Assembly: GCF_900105595.1 (NCBI RefSeq)
Contig: NZ_LT629784.1
Location: 2,108,001 to 2,172,000, forward strand
From: Stappia sp. ES.058
Lineage (GTDB): Bacteria > Pseudomonadota > Alphaproteobacteria > Rhizobiales > Stappiaceae
Direction: 5' to 3'
Length of the DNA stretch: 64,000 nucleotides
This document shows, piece by piece, positions 2,191 through 19,641 of the stretch. The notes under the pieces were generated by a model. The model was not told the origin of the DNA, did not search any database, and was given only the letters and a program-made list of their open reading frames with translations. A program made the position numbers and the translations under genes. Every line of letters begins with the position of its first letter. Within the stretch, counting starts at the first letter, position 1.

Positions 2191-3087
2191 CTACACCGCG
2201 TATTTCGCGATCATCGCTTCCAGGTATTCGGCCGCTTCCTTGCCCTTCAGCGCATCGTGCCAGAGCCCCCTGGCGATCTCCTCATGCAGCGCCATGGCTT
2301 CCTGCGCCGCGGTGATCAGGGCAACACCAAGACGGATGTTGGGCTGCTCGCCGAGACGAAACGGACTGATCGCCACCAGCGAGCGCCCGTCCTGACGGAA
2401 AATCTGGAAGCTCGTTGCCGGCACCGGTTCGCGCACGATGCCGATCTGGATGCCGATCGGCTCCTCCCGCAGCATTTCCAGAATGGATTCCGCCTCCCGG
2501 CGGGCCTGCACACGCCGGGCCCGAACCACATCGGAGGGCAGATCGTGGCGGCCGATCAACCCGTGCAAAAGAAACCGCTCCAGATCCGCTGAGGCGATCA
2601 GGCTGACGATCAGGGGACGGCGCTGGTGAAAGGATTTCTTGCGGGCCCGCAGGATCTCGAGCAGGGAGGCCACCAGATCGGCGGCGGCATCCGCCGTCAT
2701 GCTGCTTTCCGGAACCGATTCCAGCAGCACCTCGCGCAGCATGTCGTCATAGGCATCCGAGGTCAGCAGGTAGGACACCGGGCTGAACAGCCCGATGATC
2801 TGCTCGCAGTTGCGTTCCAGCTGTCGCATGCGCTCGAAAAACGCCACCGCGCTGCTGACATACTCGACCCCGACCCCCATCAGGCTCGCGAGCGAGACGC
2901 CCAGCTCCGAGGCAATGCTGGTCAGTGTCTCGATCTTGCGAATTTCCCCCTTTTCCGCCCGGTAGAGAGCGGCGCGGGACATGCCAAGCTTTTCGGCAAG
3001 CGTTTCCGGCGACAGGCCCTTGCCCAGACGATGGGCTCTCAATCTCGCGCCAATATCGGAGAAGCTGATTGTTTCCTCGGCCGGCAC
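2191..3087 (-). CDS. XRE-family transcriptional regulator, probable regulator of the divergent orotate-type operon
   Basis: A 298-aa protein with an N-terminal Cro/CI-type helix-turn-helix at about residues 10-65: LRAHRLGKGLSPETLAEKLG, then SRAALYRAEKG. About 220 residues follow that I do not recognise; they are probably a ligand-sensing or oligomerisation domain. The start is a GTG at 3087 behind AAGGAAAG. The gene is transcribed away from the TRAP/pyr operon and shares its control region, so it is inferred to be the local regulator. The ligand is unknown; an imported pyrimidine precursor is a reasonable guess. Confidence 0.78.
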   Translation of the reverse strand: MPAEETISFSDIGARLRAHRLGKGLSPETLAEKLGMSRAALYRAEKGEIRKIETLTSIASELGVSLASLMGVGVEYVSSAVAFFERMRQLERNCEQIIGLFSPVSYLLTSDAYDDMLREVLLESVPESSMTADAAADLVASLLEILRARKKSFHQRRPLIVSLIASADLERFLLHGLIGRHDLPSDVVRARRVQARREAESILEMLREEPIGIQIGIVREPVPATSFQIFRQDGRSLVAISPFRLGEQPNIRLGVALITAAQEAMALHEEIARGLWHDALKGKEAAEYLEAMIAKYAV

Positions 3088-3197
3088 GCATCTTTCCTTC
3101 CACTCAAAAATTTATCGTCTCGACGAGGCGGGCTTGTCAACGCAACCGACACTCGAATTGAAATAACGTACAAATTATTAGATTAAAAGAGCCGTCG

Positions 3198-3247
3198 TCT
3201 CATTTTTGAGATTTCTCGTTGACAGTAAAATTTTCCGCTCGTACGCT
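3198..3247 (+). promoter_or_regulatory. Promoter and candidate operator of the dctPQM-pyr operon
   Basis: Inverted repeat TCTCA-TTTT-TGAGA at 3198-3211 ends 7 bp before a consensus -35 box TTGACA (3219-3224). A 17-bp spacer leads to TACGCT (3242-3247) as -10. The repeat is well placed to bind the divergent XRE-type regulator. dctP starts 38 bp downstream behind AGAGGGC. Confidence 0.6.
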
Positions 3248-3285
3248 CTCGTCTTTCCGGATGTAAAACTCCAAAGAGGGCAACA

Positions 3286-4311
3286 ATGAAAACGTCCATT
3301 CGCAACTTATCTGCCTCATGTCTGCTTGTCGCGGCCACCGTATCCGGTGCGTCAAATGCTTTCGCGGCCGAGTTTACCGCGAAGATCGGCCACCTCGAAT
3401 CTGCCCAGCAATCGCGCCATGTCCACCTTGAGAAGGTGGCCGAGCTTGTCGCGGAGCGCACCGACGGAGCTGTCGAGTTCCAGATCTTTCCGCAGGGCCA
3501 ACTTGGCTCGCAGCGCGAAATGACCGAAGGCGTTCAGCTCGGCTCGCTCGAAGGCACCGTTGCGCCGGCAGCGTTCCTGGGTGGCTTCAATCCGGTGGTA
3601 TCCATTCTCGACATCCCCTTCCTGCTGCCCAACAGCGACGAAGCGGCGCAAAAGATCCGCGGCGGCGATTTCGGCGAAGCGCTTTGCAGCTCCTTCGACG
3701 AGCGCGGCGTGACCTGTATCGGCCTGTGGCCGAACGGCCGGAAGAACTTCACGTCGTCGAAGCCGCTTGCCAGCATCGATGACTTCGCGGGCCAGAAGTT
3801 CCGCGTGATGGATTCCAACATTCTCATCGAGCAGTTCAATTCGCTCGGCGCCTCGGCCATCGCACTGCCGTTCGGCGAGCTCTACACGGCACTTCAGACC
3901 GGTGTCGTCGACGGCGAGGAAAACCCGCTCGACACCATCCAGCGCATGAAGTTCCACGAAGTGCAGGATCATCTCGTGCTGTCCAACCACGGCGCCATGG
4001 AAGACGTCATCCTGTTCAATCCCGCCTGGTGGGCAAGCCTGCCGCAGGAGCACAAGGACACGATCGTCGCCGCGTTCCAGGAAGTCATCCCGGAGTTGAT
4101 CGCGCACAAGAGTGCGGCCGTCGACGCGGCGCTTGAGGAAATCAAGAAGTCCGACATCCAGGTTCGCGAAATGAGCGACGAGGAGAAGGCTGCGTTCCGC
4201 AAAGTGATGTATCCGGCCGGCCGCGCTGCCTATCTGGAGCGCGCAGGTGACGCCGGCGACGAGCTGATCGCCGTCTACGAAAAGGAATATGAGGCCGCCA
4301 CGGCCGAATGA
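3286..4311 (+). CDS. TRAP transporter substrate-binding protein, DctP family
   Basis: A 341-aa periplasmic binding protein with a Sec signal peptide (about residues 1-28, ending SNAFAA). The DctP fold shows in GHLESAQQSRHVHLEKVAEL, the conserved IFPQGQLGS motif, and GQKFRVMDSNILIEQFNSLG before PFGELYTALQTGVVDGEENP, which supplies the carboxylate-binding arginine region. It delivers a carboxylated substrate to the DctQM pair encoded next. DctP substrates cannot be read from sequence; the pyrimidine genes in the same operon suggest orotate, dihydroorotate or N-carbamoylaspartate. Its stop overlaps an in-frame ATG at 4308, but the real dctQ start is probably further on. Confidence 0.9.
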   Translation: MKTSIRNLSASCLLVAATVSGASNAFAAEFTAKIGHLESAQQSRHVHLEKVAELVAERTDGAVEFQIFPQGQLGSQREMTEGVQLGSLEGTVAPAAFLGGFNPVVSILDIPFLLPNSDEAAQKIRGGDFGEALCSSFDERGVTCIGLWPNGRKNFTSSKPLASIDDFAGQKFRVMDSNILIEQFNSLGASAIALPFGELYTALQTGVVDGEENPLDTIQRMKFHEVQDHLVLSNHGAMEDVILFNPAWWASLPQEHKDTIVAAFQEVIPELIAHKSAAVDAALEEIKKSDIQVREMSDEEKAAFRKVMYPAGRAAYLERAGDAGDELIAVYEKEYEAATAE

Positions 4312-4318
4312 ATTCCGA

Positions 4319-4347
4319 CCCGGTGCCGTCAAACGGCATCGGGTTTT
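4319..4347 (+). terminator. Intercistronic hairpin between dctP and dctQ
   Basis: A 10-bp stem (4319-4328 with 4334-4343, one G-U pair), loop TCAAA, followed directly by TTTT. This is a partial terminator or 3'-end stabiliser eight bases after the dctP stop. It would allow far more binding protein than membrane subunits to be made, a pattern known from binding-protein operons. Confidence 0.7.
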
Positions 4348-4403
4348 CTATTGCCGGGCCTTTGTCGGGCCCGGCGTCAGGTCCCTTTTGCAAGGACAGT
4401 CCC

Positions 4404-4904
4404 TTGAAGATCTTGACCGCCATAAGAACGGCAGAGCGTGTCGCTGCTGTCTCCATCTTTCTGTCGATGGTTGTGCTTTACTTCTCCAACGTGCTTGCAC
4501 GGCAGGTCGGAGGCACCTTCGCGTCAGACTTCGCCTGGGTGGAAGAAGCGGTTCGGCTGATGAGCCTCTTCCTGGTCTTTTTCACGGTTGGTCTCGCGCT
4601 GGAAAAAGGGCGCCATGCCGGCGTCCACACCTGGCGCGACCGTATCGCCCGGGCCACCGGCCTGCCCTTGCGCAAGGTGATCGACGCGGTCGGCTTCGTC
4701 TTCTGCGTCTATCTCGTCTATCTCAGCTACCAGATGACCGCCTTCGTCTACGGGATGGGACAGAAAAGCCCGACCCTGAACGTCCCCGTCTTCTGGATGT
4801 ATCTCGCGCCGACCACCGGCTTCGCCCTCATGGCGCTGCGCTACGCTCTCAGCTTTTTCGACCGCATCGATCGTTTCGCCGGACAGGCGTCGGAGGAACT
4901 ATGA
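4404..4904 (+). CDS. TRAP transporter small membrane subunit, DctQ family
   Basis: A 166-aa protein with four predicted membrane segments (about residues 15-35, 50-70, 90-112, 130-150). The DctQ-type segment FAWVEEAVRLMSLFLVFFTV follows the first helix. It forms the membrane complex with DctM. I chose the TTG at 4404 because AAGGA lies 7 bases before it. The ATG at 4308 would place the terminator-like hairpin 4319-4347 inside the coding region and add a non-hydrophobic extension. The 3' end overlaps dctM by four bases (ATGA). Confidence 0.82.
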   Translation: MKILTAIRTAERVAAVSIFLSMVVLYFSNVLARQVGGTFASDFAWVEEAVRLMSLFLVFFTVGLALEKGRHAGVHTWRDRIARATGLPLRKVIDAVGFVFCVYLVYLSYQMTAFVYGMGQKSPTLNVPVFWMYLAPTTGFALMALRYALSFFDRIDRFAGQASEEL

Positions 4905-6187
4905 TCCTTATCGCACTCGTCATCTTCGTCGCGGTCCTGTTGCTCGTTCTCGGGTTCGAGATGTTTCTGGTGCTGGGCGTCCCGGCATTGATGATCAAGG
5001 AATTCTTCTACGGCAGCCTTCCCGACCCCGTCCTCGCCCAGAAAATCCTCGGCGGCATCAACCACACCACCCTGCTGGCGATCCCCTTCTTCATCCTGGC
5101 GGCGGAGCTGATGGGCGCGGGCCAGATCGCAAGCCGGCTGACCGGGCTGGTCAAGACGCTGATCGGCCATCTGCGCGGCGGCATGGGCTACACCACCATC
5201 GGCGGCTCCATGGCCTTCGGGTCTGTGTCCGGCTCCGCGCCGGCGACCGTCGCCGCCATGGCGCGCATGGTCTATCCGGAGTTGCGCAAGGCCGGCTTCA
5301 GCGACCGGTTCTCGCTCGGCCTCATCGTCTCGAGCGCGGAAACGGCCTTGCTGATTCCCCCCTCCATCACTTTCATCATCTATGGCTGGATGACCGGCAC
5401 GTCTGTCGCCAAGCTGTTCGTCGGCGGCCTTGCTGTCGGTCTTGTACTGGGCATCGCCTTTTCCGTGATGGCGGCCATCGAGGCCCGTCGCAGCGGCGTC
5501 GAGCGCGCCCCGCGCACCAGCTGGCGCGAGCGCCTCGTCGCGATCCGACAGTCCGGCTGGGCGCTCGGCATGCCGTTCATCATCCTGGGCGGCATCTACA
5601 GCGGCTATTTCACGCCCACCGAAGCCGCCGCCGTCAGCGTCATCTACGCCATCCTCGTCGAGGGACTGGTCTTTCGCGAACTGACATGGCGCAAGCTGTT
5701 CGATGTGACGGAACGGGCCGCGATCTCGACCGCGATCATCTTCATCCTGCTGGCGATGGGCAGCCTGCTGTCCTATTTCATCACCTTGGCGCAGGTGCCC
5801 ACGGCCATCACAGACTTCCTGGAGGCGATCAACGCCGGACCGGTGATGTTCCTCCTGATCGTCAACGTCTGCTTCCTGATCGCCGGGATGTTCATCGATC
5901 CGAACTCGGCGCTGCTGATCCTGGTCCCGCCCCTCTTCCCGGTGGCCATGGCGCTTGGCATCGACCCCGTCCACTTCGGCATGGTGGTCACGCTGAACAT
6001 CTCCATCGGCATGATCACGCCCCCGTTCGGCCTCGATATCTTCGTGGCCTCCTCGACTTTGTCGAAGCCGGTCGTGACCATCATTTCGGGACTGTGGCCC
6101 TTCATCATCGCCAATCTGATCGTTCTGGCGATCATCACCTATGTGCCGGACATTTCCACGTTCCTGCCCCGGCTCGTGTTCGGATGA
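4901..6187 (+). CDS. TRAP transporter large membrane subunit, DctM family
   Basis: A 428-aa polytopic protein with about 12 hydrophobic segments. DctM signatures seen: FFILAAELMGAG, GSMAFGSVSGSAPATVAAM, LIVSSAETALLIPPSITFIIYG and the late ITPPFGLDIFVASS. It catalyses sodium-coupled transport across the inner membrane with DctQ and the DctP binding protein. The start ATG overlaps the dctQ stop, with GGAGG just upstream; its own stop overlaps the next start (ATGA). The substrate is inferred only from the downstream pyrimidine genes. Confidence 0.92.
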   Translation: MILIALVIFVAVLLLVLGFEMFLVLGVPALMIKEFFYGSLPDPVLAQKILGGINHTTLLAIPFFILAAELMGAGQIASRLTGLVKTLIGHLRGGMGYTTIGGSMAFGSVSGSAPATVAAMARMVYPELRKAGFSDRFSLGLIVSSAETALLIPPSITFIIYGWMTGTSVAKLFVGGLAVGLVLGIAFSVMAAIEARRSGVERAPRTSWRERLVAIRQSGWALGMPFIILGGIYSGYFTPTEAAAVSVIYAILVEGLVFRELTWRKLFDVTERAAISTAIIFILLAMGSLLSYFITLAQVPTAITDFLEAINAGPVMFLLIVNVCFLIAGMFIDPNSALLILVPPLFPVAMALGIDPVHFGMVVTLNISIGMITPPFGLDIFVASSTLSKPVVTIISGLWPFIIANLIVLAIITYVPDISTFLPRLVFG

Positions 6188-7032
6188 GTGCTATGCTGAA
6201 AACACCCCACGCCACCGCCGGCCGGGACGCGCCAAGCGCGTTCGACCTCGACCTCCGGGTCAAGAGCAACACCGCGGTCAACGGCGAATACCGGATGATG
6301 GTGCTCGATGCGCCGACACATCTGCTGAACCGCTGCCAGGCCGGCCAGTTCTTCAACATCCTGTGCCCGCAGGCCGGTGGCGAGAGCCCCTATCTGCGCC
6401 GGCCGATGAGCATCTACGGTTTCTATCCGGAGAAGAACGAGCTGCATTTCCTCTACAAGGTCGGCGGCGCGGGAACCCGCGCGCTGGCAACCCTTGGAGA
6501 CGACGACAGGCTGACCGTCTTCGGCCCGCTCGGCACACCCTTCACCATCGATGAGGACTGGATGGATCTCGTTCTCGTTGCCCGCGGCGTGGGTCTTGCC
6601 ACGCTTGCGCCTCTGGCGCTGGAAGCCAAACGTCTCGGCCGCCGGCTGACGGCGATCTGCAGCGCGCGCCATCCCGACTACCTGATGTCCATCGATCTGT
6701 TCGAGGGACTGGGTGCCAAGGTCATCGCCCTGACCGACGCGGACGGCTCGTCAACGCCGGAAAACCTCGAGATCGTTCTGGAAAAGCTGATCGCCGAGGG
6801 CCGCGCGGATGCCTTCTACACCTGCGGGTCGAACCGCATCCTGCGCCTCTTGCAAAAGCTCGGCGAGATCCACGGCATTCCCGGCCAGGTCGCACTGGAG
6901 CAGCAGATGGCCTGCGGTATCGGCATGTGCCAGTGCTGCGTTCGCAAGTTCAACCGTGACGACAAGGTCGTCAATCTGAGGGTCTGCCGGGAAGGCCCCG
7001 TCTTCGATATGGCAGAGGCCATTGCATGGTAG
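6184..7032 (+). CDS. pyrK: Dihydroorotate dehydrogenase electron-transfer subunit
   Basis: A 282-aa iron-sulfur flavoprotein that passes electrons between NAD(H) and the PyrD class 1B subunit. The FAD-binding barrel shows YLRRPMSIYGF (about residues 72-82). The NAD-binding half has RGVGLATLAPLA. The C-terminal [2Fe-2S] site reads CGIGMCQCC followed by a further Cys in VCREGPVF. The ATG at 6184 overlaps the dctM stop; the first 20 residues are variable, so the next ATG (6193) is an alternative. It overlaps pyrD by seven bases, typical of a co-translated two-subunit enzyme. PyrK/PyrD-1B pairs are classical in Gram-positives and less expected in alphaproteobacteria, where de novo synthesis usually uses quinone-linked class 2 PyrD. 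Confidence 0.9.
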   Translation: MSAMLKTPHATAGRDAPSAFDLDLRVKSNTAVNGEYRMMVLDAPTHLLNRCQAGQFFNILCPQAGGESPYLRRPMSIYGFYPEKNELHFLYKVGGAGTRALATLGDDDRLTVFGPLGTPFTIDEDWMDLVLVARGVGLATLAPLALEAKRLGRRLTAICSARHPDYLMSIDLFEGLGAKVIALTDADGSSTPENLEIVLEKLIAEGRADAFYTCGSNRILRLLQKLGEIHGIPGQVALEQQMACGIGMCQCCVRKFNRDDKVVNLRVCREGPVFDMAEAIAW

Positions 7033-7970
7033 ATCTCACAGTCGATATTGCCGGGCTGAAGCTCAAGAACCCGATCATGCCGGCCTCCGGGACCTTCTCG
7101 GAAGAGCTGGCGGAGGTCTTCGACCTAGAACTGCTCGGTGCGCATGTCACCAAGACGATCACGCGGGACTGGCGGGACGGCAATCCGACACCGCGCGTGT
7201 GCGAGGTCAACGGCTCGATGCTGAATTCCATCGGCATTCCGAGCAAGGGCGTATCTGCATTCCTGGAAAAGGTCGTGCCCTTCTTCAAGCGCTATGAAAC
7301 GCCGCTTGTCGTCAGCATCTCGGGCAACACGGCCGACGAGTTCGCGACCCTGTGCGAGGAGGTCAGCGTTGCCGGTGTCGACGCCATCGAGGTCAACATC
7401 TCCTGCCCGAACATCGAGGAAGACGGCAAGGCCTTCGCCATCCGCCCCTCCTCGACCTTCGAGATCATGCAGCGCCTGCGCGCGGCAAGCCCGCTGCCGC
7501 TGTGGGCGAAGCTCACGCCGAACACCGGCGAGGTCGCAGAAGTGGCGCGGGCCGCCGAAGACGGCGGCGCGGACGCGCTCGTCGTCTCCAACACCATCCT
7601 TTCGATGGCCATCGACATCCACTCCCGCCAGCCCAGGCTCGGCAATCTGATGGGCGGCCTGTCGGGCCCGGCGCTGAAACCGATCGCGCTGCGTATGGCC
7701 TATCAATGCGCGCGTGCCGCCAACATTCCGGTGATCGGCTGCGGCGGCATCTCCACCGCCGAGGACGTGATCGAATATCTGATCGCGGGCGCCACCGCCG
7801 TTCAGGTCGGCACGGCGACCTTCATCCATCCGACCGCAATGCTCACCATCCTTGGCGATCTCGAAGCCTGGCTTGCCGCGCAAGACATCGCCTCCGTGTC
7901 CGAGTTGATCGGCTCGGTGATCGACGGTGAACAGGATATCCGCACCTCAGCTATCGCGGTGGCACAATGA
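7026..7970 (+). CDS. pyrD: Dihydroorotate dehydrogenase, class 1B catalytic subunit
   Basis: A 314-aa FMN TIM-barrel enzyme. Class 1 identity comes from the catalytic cysteine C127 in EVNISCPN; class 2 enzymes have serine and a membrane anchor. Class 1B traits are NTILSMAIDI, GNLMGGLSGPALKPIALRM and GCGGISTAEDVIEYLIAGA. With PyrK it interconverts dihydroorotate and orotate using NAD(H). The same pair works in the reductive direction in orotate-fermenting bacteria. It overlaps pyrK by 7 nt and the downstream hydrolase by 4 nt. In this operon it may reduce imported orotate; de novo synthesis is the alternative. Confidence 0.93.
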   Translation: MVDLTVDIAGLKLKNPIMPASGTFSEELAEVFDLELLGAHVTKTITRDWRDGNPTPRVCEVNGSMLNSIGIPSKGVSAFLEKVVPFFKRYETPLVVSISGNTADEFATLCEEVSVAGVDAIEVNISCPNIEEDGKAFAIRPSSTFEIMQRLRAASPLPLWAKLTPNTGEVAEVARAAEDGGADALVVSNTILSMAIDIHSRQPRLGNLMGGLSGPALKPIALRMAYQCARAANIPVIGCGGISTAEDVIEYLIAGATAVQVGTATFIHPTAMLTILGDLEAWLAAQDIASVSELIGSVIDGEQDIRTSAIAVAQ

Positions 7971-9253
7971 CCCTTGCAAACAAGACCCCGGCCGCAGCCT
8001 CGCAAGAGGACGACGACGCGCTCGCCACGCGTCTCTTTCGCGAGATCGCGGAGATGACCCCGGACGTTCAGGGCGTCAGCCGCCCGGCGTTTTCCAACGT
8101 CGAGACCAAGACGCTCTCTTATCTGGAGGACTTCGCCCGCTCGCAAGGGCTCGAGGTCTGGTACGACGACGGCTGCAACGCCAATTTCTGCCTGCCGCAG
8201 GACCGCGATGCGGAAAGCTTCATCGTCATCGGCTCGCATGTCGACAGCGTGCCCTTCGGCGGCAACTACGACGGTCTCGCCGGCGTGATCGCGGGGCTGA
8301 TGTGCCTGGTGCGGGCGCGCCGCGGCGAAAAAACCTTCCGCCGGCCCGTCCATGTTCTCGCCATGCGCGGCGAGGAAAGCGCCTGGTTCGGCCCCTGCTA
8401 CATCGGCTCGAAAGTGCTGACCGGACAGCTGACGGAAACCGAGGCCAACGCGCGCCACAAGGGCGACGGGCGCACGCTCGCCGAGCACATGGCCGAGATC
8501 GGCCTTCCGACAGACCGTATCGCCAACCGCGAACCGCTGATCGACTGCAGCCGGGTCGAGGCCTATCTGGAACTCCATATCGAGCAGGGCCCGCTGCTGA
8601 TCGGCAAGAACATTCCCGCCGCCGTGGTTTCCGGAATACGCGGCAACTTCCGCCACCGCGCGATCAACTGCATCGGCGAGGCGGGGCACTCGGGCGCCGT
8701 GCCCAAGGCCTATCGCCGCGATCCGGTGCTGGCCTTCGCCGACCTCATGGTGCGGCTCGACGAAAGCTGGACGACGATCCTGAACAAGGGCGCCGACCTT
8801 GTGCTCACCAGCGGCATGGTGTCCACCGACCGGGAAACCAACGCGCTGTCGCGCATTCCCGACCGCCTCACCTTCAGCCTCGACATCCGCAGCCAGAGCC
8901 CCGAGACGCTGGACGAGATGCGCAGTCTCATCGCCACCGAGATGAAGCAGATCGAAAAAGACCGGAAGGTCCGCTTCGAGCTCGACGAGGGCATGTATTC
9001 CGCCCCCGCGATCTGCGATCCTGAGGTCGTTGACGGGTTGCGAAGCGCCATGGATCGCGCCGGCCTGGAGCCCTTCGTGATGCCCAGTGGCGGCGGGCAC
9101 GATGCGGCGGTGTTTTCCGCCGCCGGCGTTCCGGCAGGAATGGTCTTCGTGCGCAACCGCAACGGCTCGCATAATCCGGATGAAGCGATGGACGTTTCGG
9201 ACTTCCTGCGGGCATGCGATATCTTCTCCGCCTATCTCGAGGAGCAAGCATGA
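7967..9253 (+). CDS. M20-family Zn-dependent N-carbamoyl-amino-acid hydrolase, candidate ureidosuccinase
   Basis: A 428-aa amidohydrolase of the hydantoinase/carbamoylase type (HyuC, allantoate amidohydrolase, beta-ureidopropionase). Metal-site motifs: [46 protein letters not shown], then the late GGGHDAAVF and NGSHNPDE. The dimerisation-domain motif AGHSGAVP is present. The family removes carbamoyl groups, releasing CO2 and ammonia. Between dihydroorotate dehydrogenase and dihydroorotase the obvious substrate is N-carbamoyl-L-aspartate, giving aspartate. That is inference from context; allantoate or beta-ureidopropionate specificity cannot be excluded. Start and stop both overlap neighbours (ATGA). 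Confidence 0.85.
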
Positions 9254-10290
9254 CCACACTTACGATTCGCCGGCCCGACGACTGGCACCTGCATCTGCGC
9301 GACGGCGACGTGCTGGAAGGTGTCCTCCCCCACACCTCCCGCGATTTCGCCCGGGCGATCATCATGCCCAATCTCGTGCCGCCGGTGGTCACCACTGCCC
9401 AGGCGGCATCCTATCGCGACCGCATTCTCAAGGTGCTGCCCAAGGGCGACGACTTCACGCCGCTGATGACGCTTTATCTGACCGAGACCACCGATCCGTC
9501 GGATGTGGAGGCAGGCTATCGCGACGGGCTGATCTCGGCGGTGAAACTCTACCCCGCCGGCGCGACGACGAATTCCGAAAGCGGCGTGCGCGATCTCGCC
9601 AAGGTCTACCCGGTGCTGGAGAAGATGGCCGAGATCGGTCTGCCGCTCTGCGTCCATGGCGAAGTGACGGACCCGGAGATCGACATCTTCGACCGGGAAG
9701 CCGTGTTCCTTGAGACGATTCTCGCGCCCTTGCGCGAAAGGCTGCCGGAGCTGCGCGTCGTGCTGGAGCATGTGACGACGGAAAACGGCATCGACTACGT
9801 CAAGGCGCAGGAAAAAAACGTCGGCGCGACGATCACCACCCATCACCTGATGATCAACCGCAACGCCATTCTCGCCGGCGGCATCAGGCCGCATTACTAC
9901 TGCCTGCCGGTCGCCAAGCGCGAGAAGCATCGGTTGGCGCTCAGGGCCGCCGCGACATCGGGAGATCCCCGTTTCTTCCTGGGAACCGATTCCGCGCCCC
10001 ATCTCGACCCGCTGAAGCTCTCCGCCTGCGGCTGCGCCGGGATCTTCACGTCCATCAACACGATGGCCTGTCTGGCCGAGGTCTTCGAACAGGAAAACGC
10101 TCTGGACAAACTGGAGGCCTTCGCCTCGCTCAACGGGCCGTCCTTCTACGGCCTGCCCGTGAATGAGGCCACCATCACCCTCACCCGCCAGGACGAACCG
10201 GTCACCTTCCCCGACAAGATCGCGGTCGGCGAGGACGAGGTGACGGTGTTCGACCCGATGATCCCGATCCACTGGAATGTGGGTAGCTAG
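9250..10290 (+). CDS. pyrC: Dihydroorotase, type II (PyrC)
   Basis: A 346-aa binuclear-zinc amidohydrolase that interconverts N-carbamoyl-L-aspartate and L-dihydroorotate. The H-x-H metal motif is H13/H15 in [11 protein letters not shown], and the carboxylated lysine is K99 in [11 protein letters not shown]. Further ligands are in CVHGEVTD and ITTHHLM, and the catalytic Asp is in FLGTDSAPH. Length matches E. coli-type PyrC (about 348 aa) and differs from the longer type I enzymes. The ATG overlaps the upstream hydrolase stop. In the proposed orotate route it would run in the ring-opening direction. Confidence 0.95.
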
Positions 10291-10351
10291 ACCGGTCCAG
10301 ATTCAGTAAAGCACCTAGCGTAGAATCCGCTCGCAGCACAGGACCCAGCCC

Positions 10352-11047
10352 ATGTTCCACAACACCTTCCCCGAAAAGGCCCTCGTTTCCGAGTTGGTCG
10401 CCAAAATGCTGCTCGAGATCGAAGCCGTCCATTTCCGGGCCGATCAGCCGTTTACCTTTACCTCCGGCCTTGCGAGCCCGGTCTATATCGATTGCCGCAA
10501 GCTGATTTCCTTTCCGCGGATTCGCTCGGCCGTCATGGATTTTGCGGCCGGCACGATCCTGCGGGACGCGGGCTTCGAACAGTTCGATTCCGTCGCCGGC
10601 GGGGAAACGGCCGGAATTCCCTTCGCCGCCTGGCTGTCGGAACGCCTCGGCCTGCCGATGCAATATGTGCGCAAGAAGCCCAAGGGCTTCGGCCGGGATG
10701 CCCAGATCGAGGGCTATCTCAAGGAAGGCTCGCGCGTCCTTCTCGTCGAAGACCTGATCACCGACGGCGGCAGCAAGGTCAAGTTCGCCGAAGCCATCGA
10801 GAAGGCCGGATCGAAAGCAACGGATACGTTTTCGGTGTTCTACTACGACGTCTTCCCAGGCACGCCCGAACGCCTGGAGGCGGCCGGCATGCGCCTGCAC
10901 TATCTCGCGACGTGGTGGGACATTCTCGACGTCTGCAAGAAGCAGAAGCATCTTTCGCCTGACGTTCTCAGGGAAGTGGAGAACTTCCTGCACAATCCGC
11001 TGGAGTGGTCGGCCAACCACGGCGGCATTGCCGAACTGTCCAGTTAA
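10352..11047 (+). CDS. pyrE: Orotate phosphoribosyltransferase
   Basis: A 231-aa cytosolic type I phosphoribosyltransferase converting orotate and PRPP to OMP. The PRPP-binding motif is [15 protein letters not shown] (around residues 128-142); the early [18 protein letters not shown] matches OPRTases. It follows pyrC after 61 bases, the first clear gap in the operon, and TAGAAT at 10321-10326 could be a -10 of an extra promoter. It links the uptake/degradation genes to UMP synthesis. It may be the cell's only pyrE, which this window cannot settle. A weak AGGAC precedes the ATG. Confidence 0.94.
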
Positions 11048-11064
11048 TAGGATCGGAGTTGGAA

Positions 11065-11388
11065 ATGTTTGAAAGTCTCGTCGAGATCGTTGTCGATGGT
11101 GGGCACGGGGTGCGCTCCTACAATTCCTGCGCCAAGGCCGCGCGGGCACGGATCTCCAGCGAACCGGACAATGCAGCCGCCCTCACCCTGATCATGTTCG
11201 CCGCACAGGGCGTGGTGGAAGCCTACGACGATCAGCCGCTGCCGATCGACGCCGCCGACGCTCTTCTCGACAACTTCAAGGGAATGGTCACCACGCTCGA
11301 CAAGGCCTATGCGGACGGTTCGAGCGACGCGAAACTCGCCGCATTGAATGCGGTTTCGATCCAACTCGTGGAAGTTGCAAAAAACTGA
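11065..11388 (+). CDS. Small orphan protein at the end of the pyr operon
   Basis: A 107-aa soluble protein, probably mostly helical, with no signal peptide or membrane segment. It starts VEIVVDGGHGVRSYN and ends in a helical NAVSIQLVEVAKN. I do not recognise the family. The ATG at 11065 has GGAG six bases upstream and lies 17 bp after the pyrE stop, so it is almost certainly co-transcribed. An accessory role in the pathway is inferred only from position. Confidence 0.65.
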   Translation: MFESLVEIVVDGGHGVRSYNSCAKAARARISSEPDNAAALTLIMFAAQGVVEAYDDQPLPIDAADALLDNFKGMVTTLDKAYADGSSDAKLAALNAVSIQLVEVAKN

Positions 11389-12109: not shown

Positions 12110-15100
12110 TCAGAAGCGAAGCTTCATGCGGGCGTAGCCGCCAAGATCGGTCGTGTTCTCGCTGAACCCCGCCTGTCCGAGCAGCGAGACCGAGAACCGC
12201 TCGCTGATGTCCATGTCGAAGCCTGCCGCAAAATCGGCACGCACACGGTCGGAGCTCGCAACGCTGGACAGCGACCCGAAGGAGGCATCGCCGCCCGCAA
12301 GAACCGCCGTGGTCGACACGCTCGGGTCGGTGAGCTGGGCCGTCAGCCCGCCGCGCAGGAACACGACGGTCGGACGGTCCTGGAGGTCGAAGGCATGGCC
12401 GATCTCGAGAACGGGCGCTGCCGCGACCGAGGTCTTCGAGACGCCACGCACATTCCAGTTCAGCGGACCGGAACCGTTTTCCTGAAACGCATCCTGCCAG
12501 AAGCGCGTGACCGAGAGCGCCATCGCGGGCTTGGCATAGAAGCCGTGGCGTTCAAACACCGCCGACACACGCCCTTCCGCCGTCAGGAACCGGCCCTTGA
12601 CGTTGGCCGAAGCACTGTGACCCGTGCCACCAATCGCATAGCGCCGGTTCTGGTCGAGGTCGTAGACACCACCGCCCACCGTGGTGGAGAAGGTGAACAT
12701 CCCCACCTCGTGCTTAAGCGCGACACCGGCGCTGAAGCGGCTGCCGGACTGCGAATAGGTGCTGCTCTTCACATCGATGTATTCGATCTGACCGCCGATC
12801 TCGACGAAGGTGCTGTCGAAGACCTCCTTCTGGAATGCACCGGCCACGCCGGTCGTCACTTCGCGGAAGGAATCCGTGTTTGCGGTCGCGCTTTGGTGAT
12901 GACGATTGCCGATGGCCTGGACCCACACGCAATCGCGCTGACGGAAGAACGCATCGCCCATGCCGGGATCGAGCGTCGGACAGCTCTGCAACAGCCCGTG
13001 CAGTGCCTGGGACGCGGCGACCGCCTTCATCGCGCCGTTCAGGCTTTCTTCCGGTGACAGGGAATTGAAGTGGCGTTCCGTTTCGGCCGTGTTTCCGGAA
13101 TTGAGGAGTGTCGAGCCGAATTGCTGAACCCCGCCCGACGTGTTGTCCGTCATCCCCGCGGACTTGATCTGGCTCATCGCGTTTTCGAAGTACTCTGCCG
13201 TATTCGCGGCATTGCGCCCGAAGCCCTTTGCCCCGCCCTTGTAGTCGACGGCATAGTCGAGAAATACCTCATCGTTGCTCCCGCTGCCGCGCAGCGTATA
13301 GGCAATCACGCCATTGCCGCGCACCGTGGCATCGGACCAGTCGACCGTCTCGCCATTGGCCGAGGCCATGAACTTCAGGCTGCCGGTGTCGCCGGATGTC
13401 AGGCTGCTATTCTTCGACCACTGGGTTTGGACCCTGCCGCCCATTTTGATGGCATCGTCGTTGCCGTTGACATCCACGATGATGAGATCGTTCGTGACCG
13501 TGCCATCCGTCGCATGATCGGCATCGACAATGATCAGGTCGGTATTTTTGAAATGGCCCGTCGTGATCGTTGAGGTGTGGACCTTTCCCCATTTGCCGGC
13601 GGTCAGAACGGCATTGTTCTCGAACAGGCTGTCGGCATGGCTTCCAAGACTGAAGGTCGTGCCCAGTTCGGTCACGCCGGACTCGATGTTGTAGAAGGCC
13701 TGCTTGTTGTCATCATGCAGGTCGAGCGAGCCGGTGAACGTCCCGCTGTCGTTGACGACGTTGAGCGAGGCTTTCTCGTCATTGCGCACCACGACCGAAT
13801 CCAGATCCGCGCTGCGCAGCGTTCCCTGGTTGGTAATGTTGTTGGCGACAAAAAGGGCACCTGAGGAAGTCTTGACCGTACGCCCGCCCATGACGGCAAT
13901 CGTCGCGAAGGCATCTTTCGATGTCGTCTCGACAAGACCGCCCTGGTTGATCTGGACCTCGACCACGCCCTCGCTGTGGTTTTTCCCGTCCACGTCATGT
14001 TCGAAAAAGGTGGAGGCCTGCGCCAGGATCGCGCGCCCCTTCGCGCCTTCCGCACGCACCGTGCCGTTGACCGTGACGCCAACGCCCTTGGAATAGCTCT
14101 CGCCGCCGCCGGAGACGCTCTGCGCATAGACGCCGACCGCGCCGTCTCCGTTGACGTCGACCAGACCGTCGACTTTGACATCGACGCGTCCGCCGAGACC
14201 GTCTCGACCCTCGCTGCCGATGGATCCGCTACTGTCTCCAGCCTCCAGCTCGCCCTCGGCACCGCCGCCGCCGCCAATCGAATAGGCAAAGATCCCGTGT
14301 GCGGCCTCGCCGTCCGTAATGATGGCGCCGTCGGACCCCACCGTGACAGTTACGTCACCGCCGTCGCCCCCCTCGCCGCCATCCGCATCACCGAAGACCT
14401 GTGCGCCGAGCGTTTCCCAGAGATTGTCGATCTCGTGCACGATGGTGGTCTCGATATCGCCGGCCGCACCGCCTCCGCCACCCTGCGACTGGGCGAGAAT
14501 ACCCATGGCGCCGTCACCGTCGGTCGAGATCGTGCCGTTGTTCGTGACCGTGACCGTGCCGCCATGACCGCCGCCGCCTGAGCTCCCGGCGACCGACAGC
14601 GACGTGATCAGACCTTGCGATCCGTCGCCGCCCGTGCCGCCGCCGCCGCCGACCGACTGGGCATAGATCGCGGTCGCGGACTTGCCGGTCGTGGTGAGAT
14701 CACCGTCATTGGTCACCGTCACGGCACCGCCGTCGCTGGCCTCGCCCGCACCGCCGCCGACATCGACCGAAAAACTCTCGTAGAGGCTCTTGGGAAATTC
14801 CTTGAACTGCTCGTAGATCTCTTTTGCGGTGTTCAGCTTCTCGTAGACCTCGTAGACGTCGGCAAGCCAGCCTTCCAGGCCCGGTTCGCCGTTGCCGCCT
14901 GTGCCGCCAGACCCGCCGACGGACTGGGCGAAGATCGCGTAGGAGGCCGTGCCCGTCGTCTTGATGGTCGTCTGCTTGTGATTGGTGACATCGACCGTAT
15001 CGCCATGGCCGCCGCCGCCACCGCTGCCACCCATGGTGAAGGACAGGCTGACGCCCTTGCCTTCCGCACCCTCGCCCTCGTCGTTTTTCGGCGCAACCGT

Positions 15101-18100
15101 GTAGCCGACCGAATAGGCGCCCGCATTGCCGCCGTCGCCGCCACCGCCGCCGACCGACTGGGCGTAGACGCCGTAGGAGGTATTCTGCGCCGTGTAGATG
15201 TCGCCACTGTTGTCGATTGTGACCTTGCCGGCGTGGTTGCCGGAGCCGCCGCCGCCGCCCACCTGGGCGTTGGCGTTGACCTTGAGGTAGTCTTCCTTCT
15301 CGCGCTTGAAGTCGCCAAGGAAGGCAATGCCCGACCCGCCGTCGCCGCCGTCGCCGCCGACCGACTGGGCGAAGATGCCATGCGCGTTGCCGCCGTTCGT
15401 GATCAGGGTATTCGCGTTGGAAACGCTGACGTCTCCGCCGATTGCGCCCGATCCGCCGTTGCCGCCGACCTGAACATTGGATTCAAAGGCATTTCCCGTG
15501 CTGACGTCGAGCGTTCCGGCGTAGCTCGCCCCACCCGAGCCGCCGTTGCCACCGACCGACTGCACGAAAATGGCATCGGCGTAGTGCCCGTTCGTGATGA
15601 TGTCGCCCTTGTTGTTGATTGTAACGGCCCCGGCCTTGCTTCCGCCTCCGCCGCTGCCGCCGACGGTTACGGCAACCGTCGCGCCACCATCCATCGAGGC
15701 GTTGAACGTGCCCGCATAGACAGCCCCGCCCATGCCTCCATCGCCGCCGACCGATTGTGCCGCAAGACCAAAGGCACTGTAGCCCGATGTCATGATGGCG
15801 CCGGAGTTATCGATTTCGACCGCATCCGCGATCCCACCATCGCCGCCATCGCCACCGACACCGACATTGATGGAGCCCGAGATCTCACCGGCCGTCGCCG
15901 ACCCCATCGCCAGCATTCCGGCATTGCCGCCCGACCCGCCGACGCTCTGCGCCACGACAGCAGCGGAATAGTCGCCCTTGGTCGTGAGCTTGCCCTTATT
16001 GTCGACATTGACCGTGCCGCCGGTGCCGCCGGCACCGCCGTTGCCGCCAACGCCGATGTTGACGTCGACGATGCTGACCGCGCCCGAGGCCGTCACCGCG
16101 CCGTTGCCACCGCCGCCACCGACGGACTGGGCGAAGAGCGCGACCGACCCGTCGCCATCGGTCTGAACCTCGGCGTCATTGTCGATCTGGACATTGCCGG
16201 CATCGCCGCCTTCTCCGCCATCGCCGCCATGCGTGTAATTCATGCTGATGCCGAGATCGGCATTGACCGTCGTGTTGGCGACGCCGCCGCCGCCGGCGAC
16301 GCTTTGCGCCAGAATGCCGGTCGCCGAGGATCCCTTGGTCCAGATCTTGGCCTTGCTGGTGACCTTCACGTCCCCGCTGACGCCGCCATCGCCACCAGAC
16401 TGGCCCAGCGTCACGGCACCGGCGGAAAGCGTCACATCGGCATCGATCGTCGAGCCCGCCTTGCCGCCGCCGCCGCCCACCGACTGGGCGAGAATGCCGA
16501 GCGCCATGTGACCGCCGGTCGTGATCGCACCGTTGGAGACGACCGTCACCTTGCCGCCGTCTCCGCCGGCACCGCCCTTGGCGCCCTGATTTCCGATATA
16601 CTGGCTCAGATTGATCCCGCCGACGTTTGAATCGAACACATTGCTCGAGTGACCGCCGCCGCCGCCCACCGACTGCGCGAAGATGCCGTCGGAATCATGC
16701 CCTGTCGTCGTGATGGCCGCATTGCTGGTGAAGTCGACGGTCCCGCCGTCGCCACCCTTGTCGCCATCAGCGCCCATGTCGTGATTGAACTGGATCGCGG
16801 CCCCGGCCTGCACGCTGTTGCCGGCAGACCCGCCACCGCCGCCGAGCGACTGGACGAAAGCACCGGCCGAATTGTGCCCGTCCGTTTCGATTGTTCCGCC
16901 AATGGTGCCGGAAACCGTGCCGCCGTGATGCTGAATATCGCTAGACAGCGCGCCCGCTTGCGGGTTGAACACGAGGCCGATGTTGATCTCGACCGTGTTG
17001 CCGCCGACGCCACCGCCGCCACCAACGGACTGCGCGAAGAAGCCGCGCGAATGATCGCCCGATGTCTTGATGACATCCTTGTCGGATCCCGTGAAGGTCA
17101 CGTCGCCACCCGAACCGCCACCGCCACCGCTCGTTCCGACCAGCGGCGTGAGAAGCGCGATCGCCTCGAAGGAACTCGCGCCCTTGCCGCCGCCGCCGCC
17201 GAGCGACTGGAGCATGATGCCGTCGGCATGGTCGCCTTCTGTGGTGACCGAAACGCCCTTGCCCTTGCTCGTGAAGGTGACCGTGTCGCCATTGCCGCCG
17301 CCGCCGCCGTCCTGGCCGTAGGCGAAGGCACCGCTCGGCGAATAGGCATCGCCACCGCCCGCGCCGATGCTTTCCACCAGGATGCCGACCGAAGCGTCGC
17401 CCTTGGTGGTTGCCGTCACACCGTCAACCGTCAGCTCGGCCGTTCCGGCCTTGCCGCCGAGGCCGGCCTTGCCGCCCACGGCATAAAACCCGTCGGCGGC
17501 CCCCGAGCTGCCGCCGCCGCCACCGATCGACTGGATCTTGATCGCCGCCGAATTGAGGCCTTCGGTCGCGAACGTGCTGTCCACGAGGCTGACGTTGACC
17601 GTTCCGCCGACACCGCCGGCGCCGGCTTCCGCCGCAAGCGCCGACAGGCCGGAGGTCTTGCCCGCCTTGCCGCCGCCGCCGCCAACAGACTGGGCGTGAA
17701 GCGCGCTGGCGTGATCCCCGGTCGTTGTGACGCTCGACGAGGTCACGGTGGCGTTCACCTTGCCGCCGGCGCCGCCGCTTCCGCCCTTGCTGCCATAGGA
17801 AAAGACACCGGAGACATTGCCACCGTTGCCGCCCATGCCGCCGACGCTCTGCAGGAGAACGCCGTCCGCACCCTCGGCGGAGGTATTCACGGTGGACCCG
17901 GTCAGGGTCAGGTCGACAGTCCCCGCCTCGCCCGGCTCACCGGGATTTCCCGAGTGGTTCTTGATGCCGCCGTGATCGCCGCCGCTGTCGCCGGCATGGC
18001 CGCCGGCACTCTTGAGATAGACCGCAGGCCCGGACCCGGCGCCCTTGGTGGTCACATCGACCTTGAGGTCGGCCGAAACATTGCCGCCGTTGCCGGCATC

Positions 18101-19192: not shown

Positions 19193-19641
19193 TGACGTGA
19201 AACCTGTTTTCTGGCGGGCGAGCCTTGGAAAGGCCGCAAGACAATCAGGAAGCGGTCCGAAACGCGGGCGATTCCAGCCGGCGCAACGTGCCCCCCGGGA
19301 AAACCGCGGAGACCGGCGAACACCGCAAACAGCTGTCGCCCCGGTCGCCCGCCGCATTGCGAGTCGGTTCCAAAGATCTACCAAAACCATTAAACAAGTA
19401 ATAATCGCAGAGTCTTAGCGGTCGAATGCATCGCCGAATCTTGAAGCTGCGAGAAATCAAAACGACAAGACATTCCCGCGCCGCACGCAACGTAAGATGC
19501 CTAAAAATCAGACCGAAAACGCAAGTATTGAAAAGCGGGTAAATATTCGTGAAGACGAACAGGCGCACCAGGAAACGCATCTCGCAAGGCATTTTCGCCA
19601 AATGCATCACGTGTCGGATGCAACCGGTCACGCAGGACCGA
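19193..19641. other. Upstream region of the autotransporter gene
   Basis: About 450 bp with no believable gene. It must contain the autotransporter promoter on the reverse strand and the end of the SpoIIAA-like transcript. The part 19380-19600 is AT-richer than the flanks. I see no confident -35/-10 pair or hairpin. Confidence 0.4.

Follow-up and report, generated by a model that had tools for sequence, protein, structure and literature searches.

Orotate breakdown and a candidate locus in Stappia

The breakdown of orotate, a pyrimidine precursor, has been known as chemistry for decades. Clostridium (Zymobacterium) oroticum ferments it by means of a dihydroorotate dehydrogenase linked to NAD, a dihydroorotase and a ureidosuccinase (EC 3.5.1.7), and the reductive breakdown of uracil proceeds through PreAT, dihydropyrimidinase and β-ureidopropionase. 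Here we describe a cassette of ten genes in the genome of the marine bacterium Stappia sp. ES.058, a single contig of 4.63 Mb (NZ_LT629784.1). The cassette is regulated and very probably serves to take up orotate and to break it down reductively, and it could also salvage the compound. The cassette lies within a stretch of 64,000 nucleotides (positions 2,108,001 to 2,172,000 of the contig), the whole of which was analysed and is referred to below as the window. Genes for orotate breakdown in Proteobacteria were not announced in the titles and abstract openings of the papers listed by searches of the open literature, and the module would supply the genes that this long-known pathway has lacked, with a candidate for each step including the ureidosuccinase. 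The chemistry is known; the gene module, a partner protein, an operator and the capture of an essential enzyme appear to be new.

The likeness to C. oroticum lies in the three chemical steps, which are the same as those proposed here, and in the class of the dehydrogenase, which is tabulated as 1B for that organism (PMC10395836). The Stappia cassette differs in belonging to the Proteobacteria, in having an importer with a binding protein, a regulator and operator of its own, a PyrE and a 107-residue partner protein, and in offering a candidate gene for each step. For the importer, the closest described protein is a DctP of Maridesulfovibrio salexigens (PDB entry 4NN3), reported bound to orotic acid (PMC11668362); it is 63% identical to the DctP of the window and has the same residues at the binding positions compared. 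The gene for the window protein is tied to those of the proposed breakdown enzymes. The reductive uracil route is similar in that a ring is reduced and opened and a carbamoyl group removed by related enzyme families. Here, however, the substrate carries a carboxylate, the enzymes are a class 1B PyrD (PyrD1B), PyrC and an M20 hydrolase with Arg296, and the product would be aspartate rather than β-alanine.

The gene list of a first-pass annotation, made from the sequence, has held: the genes from dctP to the last of the series, and the divergent XRE-type regulator, all lie where it had put them, in the order regulator, dctP, dctQ, dctM, pyrK, pyrD1B, M20, pyrC, pyrE and a final small gene, and all ten are open. 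The overlaps of 4-7 bases that it claimed from dctQ through pyrC are read from the sequence as 4, 4, 7, 4 and 4 bases for the series dctQ-dctM-pyrK-pyrD-M20-pyrC; a gap of 61 bases precedes pyrE and one of 17 bases the last gene. In window coordinates, the features are as follows.

2191..3087, reverse strand: XRE-family regulator, with a match to HTH_3/HTH_31 at residues 12-67 only; its C-terminal domain, some 220 residues long, is uncharacterised
3198..3211, no strand assigned: operator-like palindrome TCTCATTTTTGAGA, separated by 7 bases from the -35 box downstream
3219..3247, forward strand: promoter TTGACA, 17-base spacer, TACGCT, called from conservation in an upstream alignment
3286..4311, forward strand: dctP, solute-binding protein of a tripartite ATP-independent periplasmic (TRAP) transporter, putative orotate-binding clade (PF03480; 203/324 residues identical to 4NN3)
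4308..4904, forward strand: dctQ, TRAP small permease (PF04290 from residue 54)
4317..4345, forward strand: hairpin between dctP and the probable dctQ start, with a 13-pair stem
4901..6187, forward strand: dctM, TRAP large permease (TIGR00786, 398 bits)
6184..7032, forward strand: pyrK, FAD/2Fe-2S electron-transfer subunit of dihydroorotate dehydrogenase B (PF10418 and cysteine motif; PRK00054 models best but below cut-off)
7026..7970, forward strand: pyrD class 1B, catalytic subunit (passes the cut-offs of TIGR01037 and NF005574; Cys127 in NISCPN)
7967..9253, forward strand: M20 hydrolase of the hydantoinase/carbamoylase family (TIGR01879 over cut-off), put forward here as an N-carbamoyl-L-aspartate amidohydrolase, or ureidosuccinase
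9250..10290, forward strand: pyrC, class II dihydroorotase, active-site motifs present (TIGR00856, 440 bits)
10352..11047, forward strand: pyrE, orotate phosphoribosyltransferase (NF001729, 380 bits)
11065..11388, forward strand: 107-residue protein of a conserved family with no Pfam name, a candidate partner of the M20 hydrolase, to which it is fused in Agrobacterium

In the mechanism that we propose, DctP would bind orotate in the periplasm and DctQM would import it. PyrK-PyrD1B, judging by enzyme class and context, would then use NADH to reduce orotate to L-dihydroorotate, and PyrC would open the ring to give N-carbamoyl-L-aspartate, the reverse of its biosynthetic direction. The M20 hydrolase would release L-aspartate, CO2 and NH3, probably with the 107-residue protein as its partner in this cleavage, as a natural fusion suggests, while PyrE could divert orotate through orotidine monophosphate to uridine monophosphate.

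Conservation and spread of the gene set

A scan with an alignment of 21 DctP sequences returned at least 19 loci at 55% identity or more, after which identity drops to 34%. Together with 19 further regions, and less three duplicates (L209, L219 and L222, from the same genomes as L021, L025 and L029), these provide 35 loci for comparison. PyrK, PyrD1B and the M20 hydrolase all lie beside DctP in 31 of the 35, and because the three recur beside the same DctP in this way the gene set is not a chance association. The four loci that lack the full core comprise one at a contig end (L034) and three with TRAP genes alone (L036, L037 and L223); the genome of L036 has a PyrD1B-M20-pyrC-pyrE run on another contig (L105). 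The remaining genes are less constant. Among the 31 core loci, pyrC is present in 25, absent from five and counted neither way in one (L024), where the cassette is partly unreadable; pyrE is present in 20, absent from ten and doubtful in one, a 44% match outside the operon of L038 not being counted as present. The regulator accompanies 28, and the gene for the 107-residue protein 21 by a stricter search or 23 by a looser one. The Nitratireductor indicus locus (L020) has the core with neither pyrC nor pyrE; the genomes of the other four pyrC-less loci were searched, and all have a ring-opening gene elsewhere.

This DctP clade is rare: it was found in two of 385 genomes sampled from the class, in a survey that scored at most five candidates per genome and may undercount, and in 13 of 14 genomes of the genus (Stappia sp. 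ES.058 included in both counts). The flanks of the window match only three of the 19 fetched regions (L206-L208), and the cassette therefore occupies different places within one genus. It is also found on plasmids: the DctP clade occurs on eight plasmid records, the M20 protein on 72 and PyrD1B on 67, the last two in nearly the same genera. Twelve plasmid regions were opened, and they show related enzyme cores in alpha-, beta- and gammaproteobacteria; the PyrK-PyrD1B-M20 set for the proposed orotate degradation is kept together across lineages, in the DctP loci and in plasmid regions. One of the opened regions, from Cupriavidus, is without annotation.

The plasmid modules vary in importer and accessory genes. 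A Nitratireductor plasmid has the TRAP form, without pyrC. One Agrobacterium strain carries PyrK-PyrD1B-M20 beside ABC transporter genes and a gene resembling uridine phosphorylase; in a second strain the three are accompanied by a regulator homolog, with pyrF nearby, and neither Agrobacterium module has an annotated pyrC or pyrE adjoining it. Two Roseomonas modules combine the core with PyrE and LysR-type regulators, and with a major facilitator superfamily (MFS) gene in one species. An unannotated Neorhizobium region has the regulator, the core and a homolog of the small protein. In Variovorax the core stands with an MFS gene, PyrC, the regulator, a PyrE-like gene and a small-protein homolog, and in Klebsiella with a divergent MFS gene, PyrC, the regulator and the small protein. 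The Pseudomonas putida module comprises an MFS gene, the core, a PRK09236-type dihydroorotase, the small protein and the regulator; here the function would have been kept and the protein swapped. Four of the MFS proteins were tested, and scored best, below the cut-off, with an aromatic acid/H+ symporter model. A 7.3-kb Klebsiella stretch that carries the module is matched at 99% or more by 55 plasmid records in the collection searched; in 53 of these, Klebsiella plasmids, the match spans 80% or more of the stretch. The E. coli genomes searched gave no near match. In the Klebsiella region that was opened (L243), the module lies close to a plasmid-borne lacZY.

Substrate, direction of flow and cleavage

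A complete DctP-type TRAP set is recognised in the window, with DctP, DctQ and DctM all identified. Among solved structures, DctP best matches 4NN3, with 440 bits, compared with 179 bits for the runner-up, and 203 of 324 aligned residues are identical. A DctP labelled Stappia stellulata is 91% identical to that of the window. Of the 127 columns that are invariant in 21 members of the DctP family, 117 are identical in 4NN3, and residues K153, R173, F196 and N213 are the same in the window protein, all 21 family rows and 4NN3. The 4NN3 protein is described as having a lysine at the place of the second arginine of its relatives (PMC11668362), and alignment would equate this lysine with Lys153 of the window protein and of all 21 family rows. 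Orotic acid is, moreover, among the TRAP ligands given for the Enzyme Function Initiative screen (PMC5812351). The first-pass annotation had thought a TRAP system for orotate to be a novelty, which it is not, since orotic acid is already a listed ligand and is reported bound to the 63%-identical relative. A tie between such a receptor and a breakdown operon was not found in the open literature searched. Because this relative is reported with orotic acid, and because the partner genes encode PyrD1B and a hydrolase for ureido compounds, orotate is the best-supported substrate; the same two lines of evidence support the earlier suggestion that the operon imports orotate or a relative of it.

Could the imported compound be such a relative, for instance dihydroorotate, N-carbamoylaspartate, a substituted orotate or another pyrimidine carboxylate, entering the same enzymes? 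The wider DctP clade does occur in another context, since in Paracoccus seriniphilus a 53%-identical DctP adjoins genes for an amidohydrolase and a ring-hydroxylating dioxygenase, with no PyrD, and the genes adjoining the first Agrobacterium module, for an ABC transporter and a uridine-phosphorylase-like protein, would also fit. Against this stand the ligand reported for 4NN3 and the constancy of PyrK-PyrD1B, which occurs in 31 of 35 loci and would be needless for dihydroorotate or carbamoylaspartate. We regard a substrate other than orotate as unlikely.

The direction in which the dehydrogenase runs is the second question. PyrD passes the subfamily 1 model (TIGR01037) and has the catalytic Cys127, so that the class 1B assignment of the first-pass annotation, which gave this cysteine, stands; PyrK carries the FAD/2Fe-2S domain and cysteine motif, and its scores with the NCBIfam equivalog models fall short of their cut-offs. 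A quinone-type class 2 PyrD is encoded separately at 0.58 Mb. Of 36 genomes searched, 34 retain class 2 PyrD, and the two that lack it (G004 and G014) are metagenome assemblies; three of the 36 (G410, G416 and G017) did not show the enzyme set. This retention rules out PyrD1B as a substitute for class 2 PyrD. It also gives indirect support to a reaction in which PyrK-PyrD1B would run with NADH toward dihydroorotate.

The opposite direction belongs to an explanation by salvage and synthesis only, in which the TRAP transporter feeds PyrE, PyrK-PyrD1B makes orotate with NAD+ and the M20 hydrolase is unrelated. The pyrE and pyrC of the operon are indeed the only recognised intact copies in the genome, and class 1B enzymes are tabulated among the dihydroorotate dehydrogenases of Gram-positive pyrimidine synthesis (PMC10395836). 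However, besides the retained class 2 enzyme, the M20 hydrolase matches PyrD1B in constancy, and of the 31 core loci ten lack pyrE and five lack pyrC; the N. indicus core has neither gene in its locus, and no annotated copy of either stands beside the two Agrobacterium modules. We consider salvage and synthesis quite unlikely to be the whole explanation.

The first-pass annotation had looked to second copies of pyrD, the dihydroorotase gene and pyrE as a sign that this was more than de novo synthesis. A separate class 2 pyrD is present; another class II dihydroorotase is not, nor was another PyrE recognised. Plain de novo synthesis still does not account for the cassette, because several relatives hold cassette copies besides pyrC and pyrE elsewhere, and because the core persists with neither in the N. 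indicus locus. That an ordinary pyrimidine operon adjoins a dicarboxylate transporter by chance is scarcely credible and was rejected, despite the lack of other class II pyrC or other recognised pyrE genes, on the overlap of the genes, the second pyrD elsewhere, and the conservation of the same set, with TRAP and M20 genes, at different genome sites in distant families and on plasmids.

The M20 hydrolase passes TIGR01879 with 254 bits against a cut-off of 204. The residues that we take to be its metal ligands (H91, D102, E137, H204 and H402) are invariant in 20 module sequences, and 16 of its 18 PDB profile matches are named as members of the carbamoylase family or as enzymes for ureido compounds, the other two being named as a deacylase and a putative amidohydrolase/peptidase. 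Metal-ligand positions and sequence family are shared with allantoate amidohydrolase (1Z2L) and N-carbamoyl-L-amino acid hydrolase (3N5F). The difference lies just before an Ile/Val-Pro pair, where 3N5F and 1Z2L have Asn-Val, 4PXE has Asn-Ser and 5TP4 a gap and Thr; the module enzymes have Ser/Thr/Ala-Arg. This arginine, Arg296, is invariant in all 20 cassette and all seven plasmid module sequences, and is V, T or S in the PDB relatives listed. An additional arginine close to the carboxylate site would suit a substrate with two carboxylates, for example N-carbamoylaspartate, and we propose on these grounds that the enzyme is an N-carbamoyl-L-aspartate amidohydrolase.

The last gene had been called an orphan, and proves instead to belong to a conserved cassette family. 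A single-sequence search of 5.8 billion proteins gave 35 members and a profile search 114 (the query included). Nothing convincing was found in Pfam, the best match being DUF3069 (E 2e-4), seen in seven of 42 members at E values up to 1, and the PDB search gave no solved relative. The Agrobacterium M20 protein has 552 residues, of which 18-423 match the M20 profile (E 1.6e-191) and 445-547 that of the small protein (E 3.8e-19; both computed with Z = 177635); the small proteins of the Variovorax, Klebsiella and P. putida modules match the latter profile at 1.6e-10 to 1.1e-6. This natural fusion, together with shared presence, suggests that the 107-residue protein works with the M20 hydrolase, and an unnamed family gains a testable role. 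In Mesorhizobium sp. Root554 (L139) a second member follows a pyrE apart from the cassette, which makes a link with PyrE an alternative.

Essential enzymes and control

The PyrC of the window is the sole class II dihydroorotase of the genome. It scores 440 bits with TIGR00856 (cut-off 293) and has the motifs HLH, K, H, H and D, which presumably bind the metals. The window PyrE (NF001729, 380 bits against 245; TIGR00336 narrowly below cut-off) is the only PyrE recognised among nine matches to the phosphoribosyltransferase family PF00156, seven of which look by eye like, and are taken to be, Prs, Hpt, Gpt, Apt, PurF, ComF and Upp (L005, L006, L007, L008, L010, L011 and L012). Other candidates for the dihydroorotase were examined. 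Class I dihydroorotases carry an HxH metal motif; the class I PyrC that adjoins pyrB at 2.345 Mb (L014) passes PRK09059, a curated equivalog model for dihydroorotase, and reads D-M-D-V-T-V at this position. We set it aside as the working enzyme, as the motif is missing by eye and the protein is inactive-looking, if not proven dead. The other stronger matches to TIGR00857 (L015-L017) belong to the dihydropyrimidinase/hydantoinase family, and a weak one (L019) is like cytosine deaminase. At 4.08-4.10 Mb the genome has PreA together with a dihydropyrimidinase (L003 and L016), and the reductive uracil route is therefore probably present too.

The distribution of dihydroorotases in relatives points the same way. 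Each of the 13 cassette genomes of the genus has one class II PyrC, and the cassette-less G410 has none. Among 16 genomes chosen from relatives, which as kin are not 16 independent cases, seven have class II PyrC and no PRK09060-type dihydroorotase over the cut-off, and the other nine lack class II PyrC and all have the PRK09060 type over it. From this exclusion, the class I copy without HxH and the lack of another class II copy, we infer that in this genome synthesis has passed to the cassette PyrC. No other dihydroorotase looks intact and no other PyrE was recognised, and a putatively catabolic operon therefore carries two genes of essential synthesis.

A second class II PyrC occurs besides the cassette copy in five of 18 genomes (G003, G006, G010, G012 and G013), and an extra PyrE outside the cassette in seven (G003, G004, G006, G007, G010, G011 and G012). 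In the PyrC and PyrE trees, cassette copies tend to cluster across families, Stappia PyrC standing with Mesorhizobium and Chelativorans. The trees require seven label changes for PyrC, against 17.1 in shuffles, and six for PyrE, against 14.4 (the PyrE bootstrap is not settled, and some rows are very long); the cassette copies thus did not arise once only, and have probably been exchanged with genes outside the cassette. Two loci of the same genus (L212 and L214) have a 39-codon pyrE remnant between pyrC and the last gene. It is reasonably probable that this is a horizontally spread, exchangeable proteobacterial module for orotate breakdown, with PyrK-PyrD1B, a true ureidosuccinase and a dedicated 107-residue partner, mostly one type of XRE regulator, and TRAP, MFS or ABC importers. 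In Stappia it would have taken over the essential dihydroorotase of its host and, in some species, PyrE, so that a single regulated operon would hold one enzyme working in both directions, forwards for synthesis and in reverse for breakdown.

How such an operon might be controlled is suggested by its upstream region. The regulator has 16 PDB profile matches, all confined to its helix-turn-helix part and none to the C-terminal domain. A palindrome, TCTCA-N4-TGAGA, is common to the upstream regions, and in the window stands 7 bases before a promoter that most of the 19 aligned regions conserve; the promoter call rests on this conservation because the consensus scan did not list it. The window contains one exact match to the palindrome and still one site when a mismatch is allowed; with two mismatches 0.75 matches are expected by chance, so that the window by itself proves nothing. 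The 35 other loci (658 kb) contain 32 sites with at most one mismatch, beside the cassette promoter or the regulator, where about 1.5 would be expected (0.15 per 64 kb, from 20 first-order simulations of the window). Such sites occur in 26 of the 28 loci that bear the regulator and in one of the seven that do not, although the loci are not independent; the exception is L036, where the contig ends close by. In Agrobacterium and Neorhizobium the palindrome is placed before pyrK, and the Klebsiella region has a single one-mismatch copy, inside the regulator gene. These associations lead us to infer that the XRE regulator controls the promoter through TCTCA-N4-TGAGA.

Several observations weigh against the proposed import and breakdown of orotate, or against parts of it. 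Beside the modules of L029, L220, L221, L235, L236 and L241 the searches gave no regulator homolog; likewise they gave no palindrome in the Roseomonas, Variovorax and P. putida regions, and no 107-residue homolog adjoining either Roseomonas module. The DctP clade occurs without breakdown enzymes in the covered parts of L037 and L223, and given the context in P. seriniphilus not every DctP of the wider clade need serve orotate breakdown. Among the 25 of 30 families listed, the M20 hydrolase scores under the cut-offs of the equivalog models. Finally, the gene for the only PyrC overlaps by 4 bases with that for a hydrolase whose proposed activity would consume what PyrB makes, and since the two form one tight operon, regulation must prevent a drain on synthesis; the promoter and palindrome scans made found no internal promoter or second operator. 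The question raised is how a sole dihydroorotase is kept serving synthesis beside such an enzyme.

A second conserved element lies at the junction of dctP and dctQ, where a hairpin folding at -17.7 kcal/mol or below is found in 33 of the 35 other loci, with unrelated sequence (no shuffled control was run). It perhaps sets receptor levels above those of the permeases. The annotated dctQ start at 4308 is doubtful, because the hairpin lies there, because the Pfam DctQ match begins only at residue 54, and because elsewhere the DctQ-matching part starts 8-378 bases past the dctP stop; the true start may be the TTG at 4404.

Two neighbours of the cassette may be mentioned. On the reverse strand, positions 12110-19390 hold an open frame of 2426 codons without a Pfam match; its product is rich in glycine, appears to be secreted and by eye resembles an autotransporter or adhesin. 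Beyond the regulator, at 459-1148 on the reverse strand, two cold-shock domains are combined in one protein.

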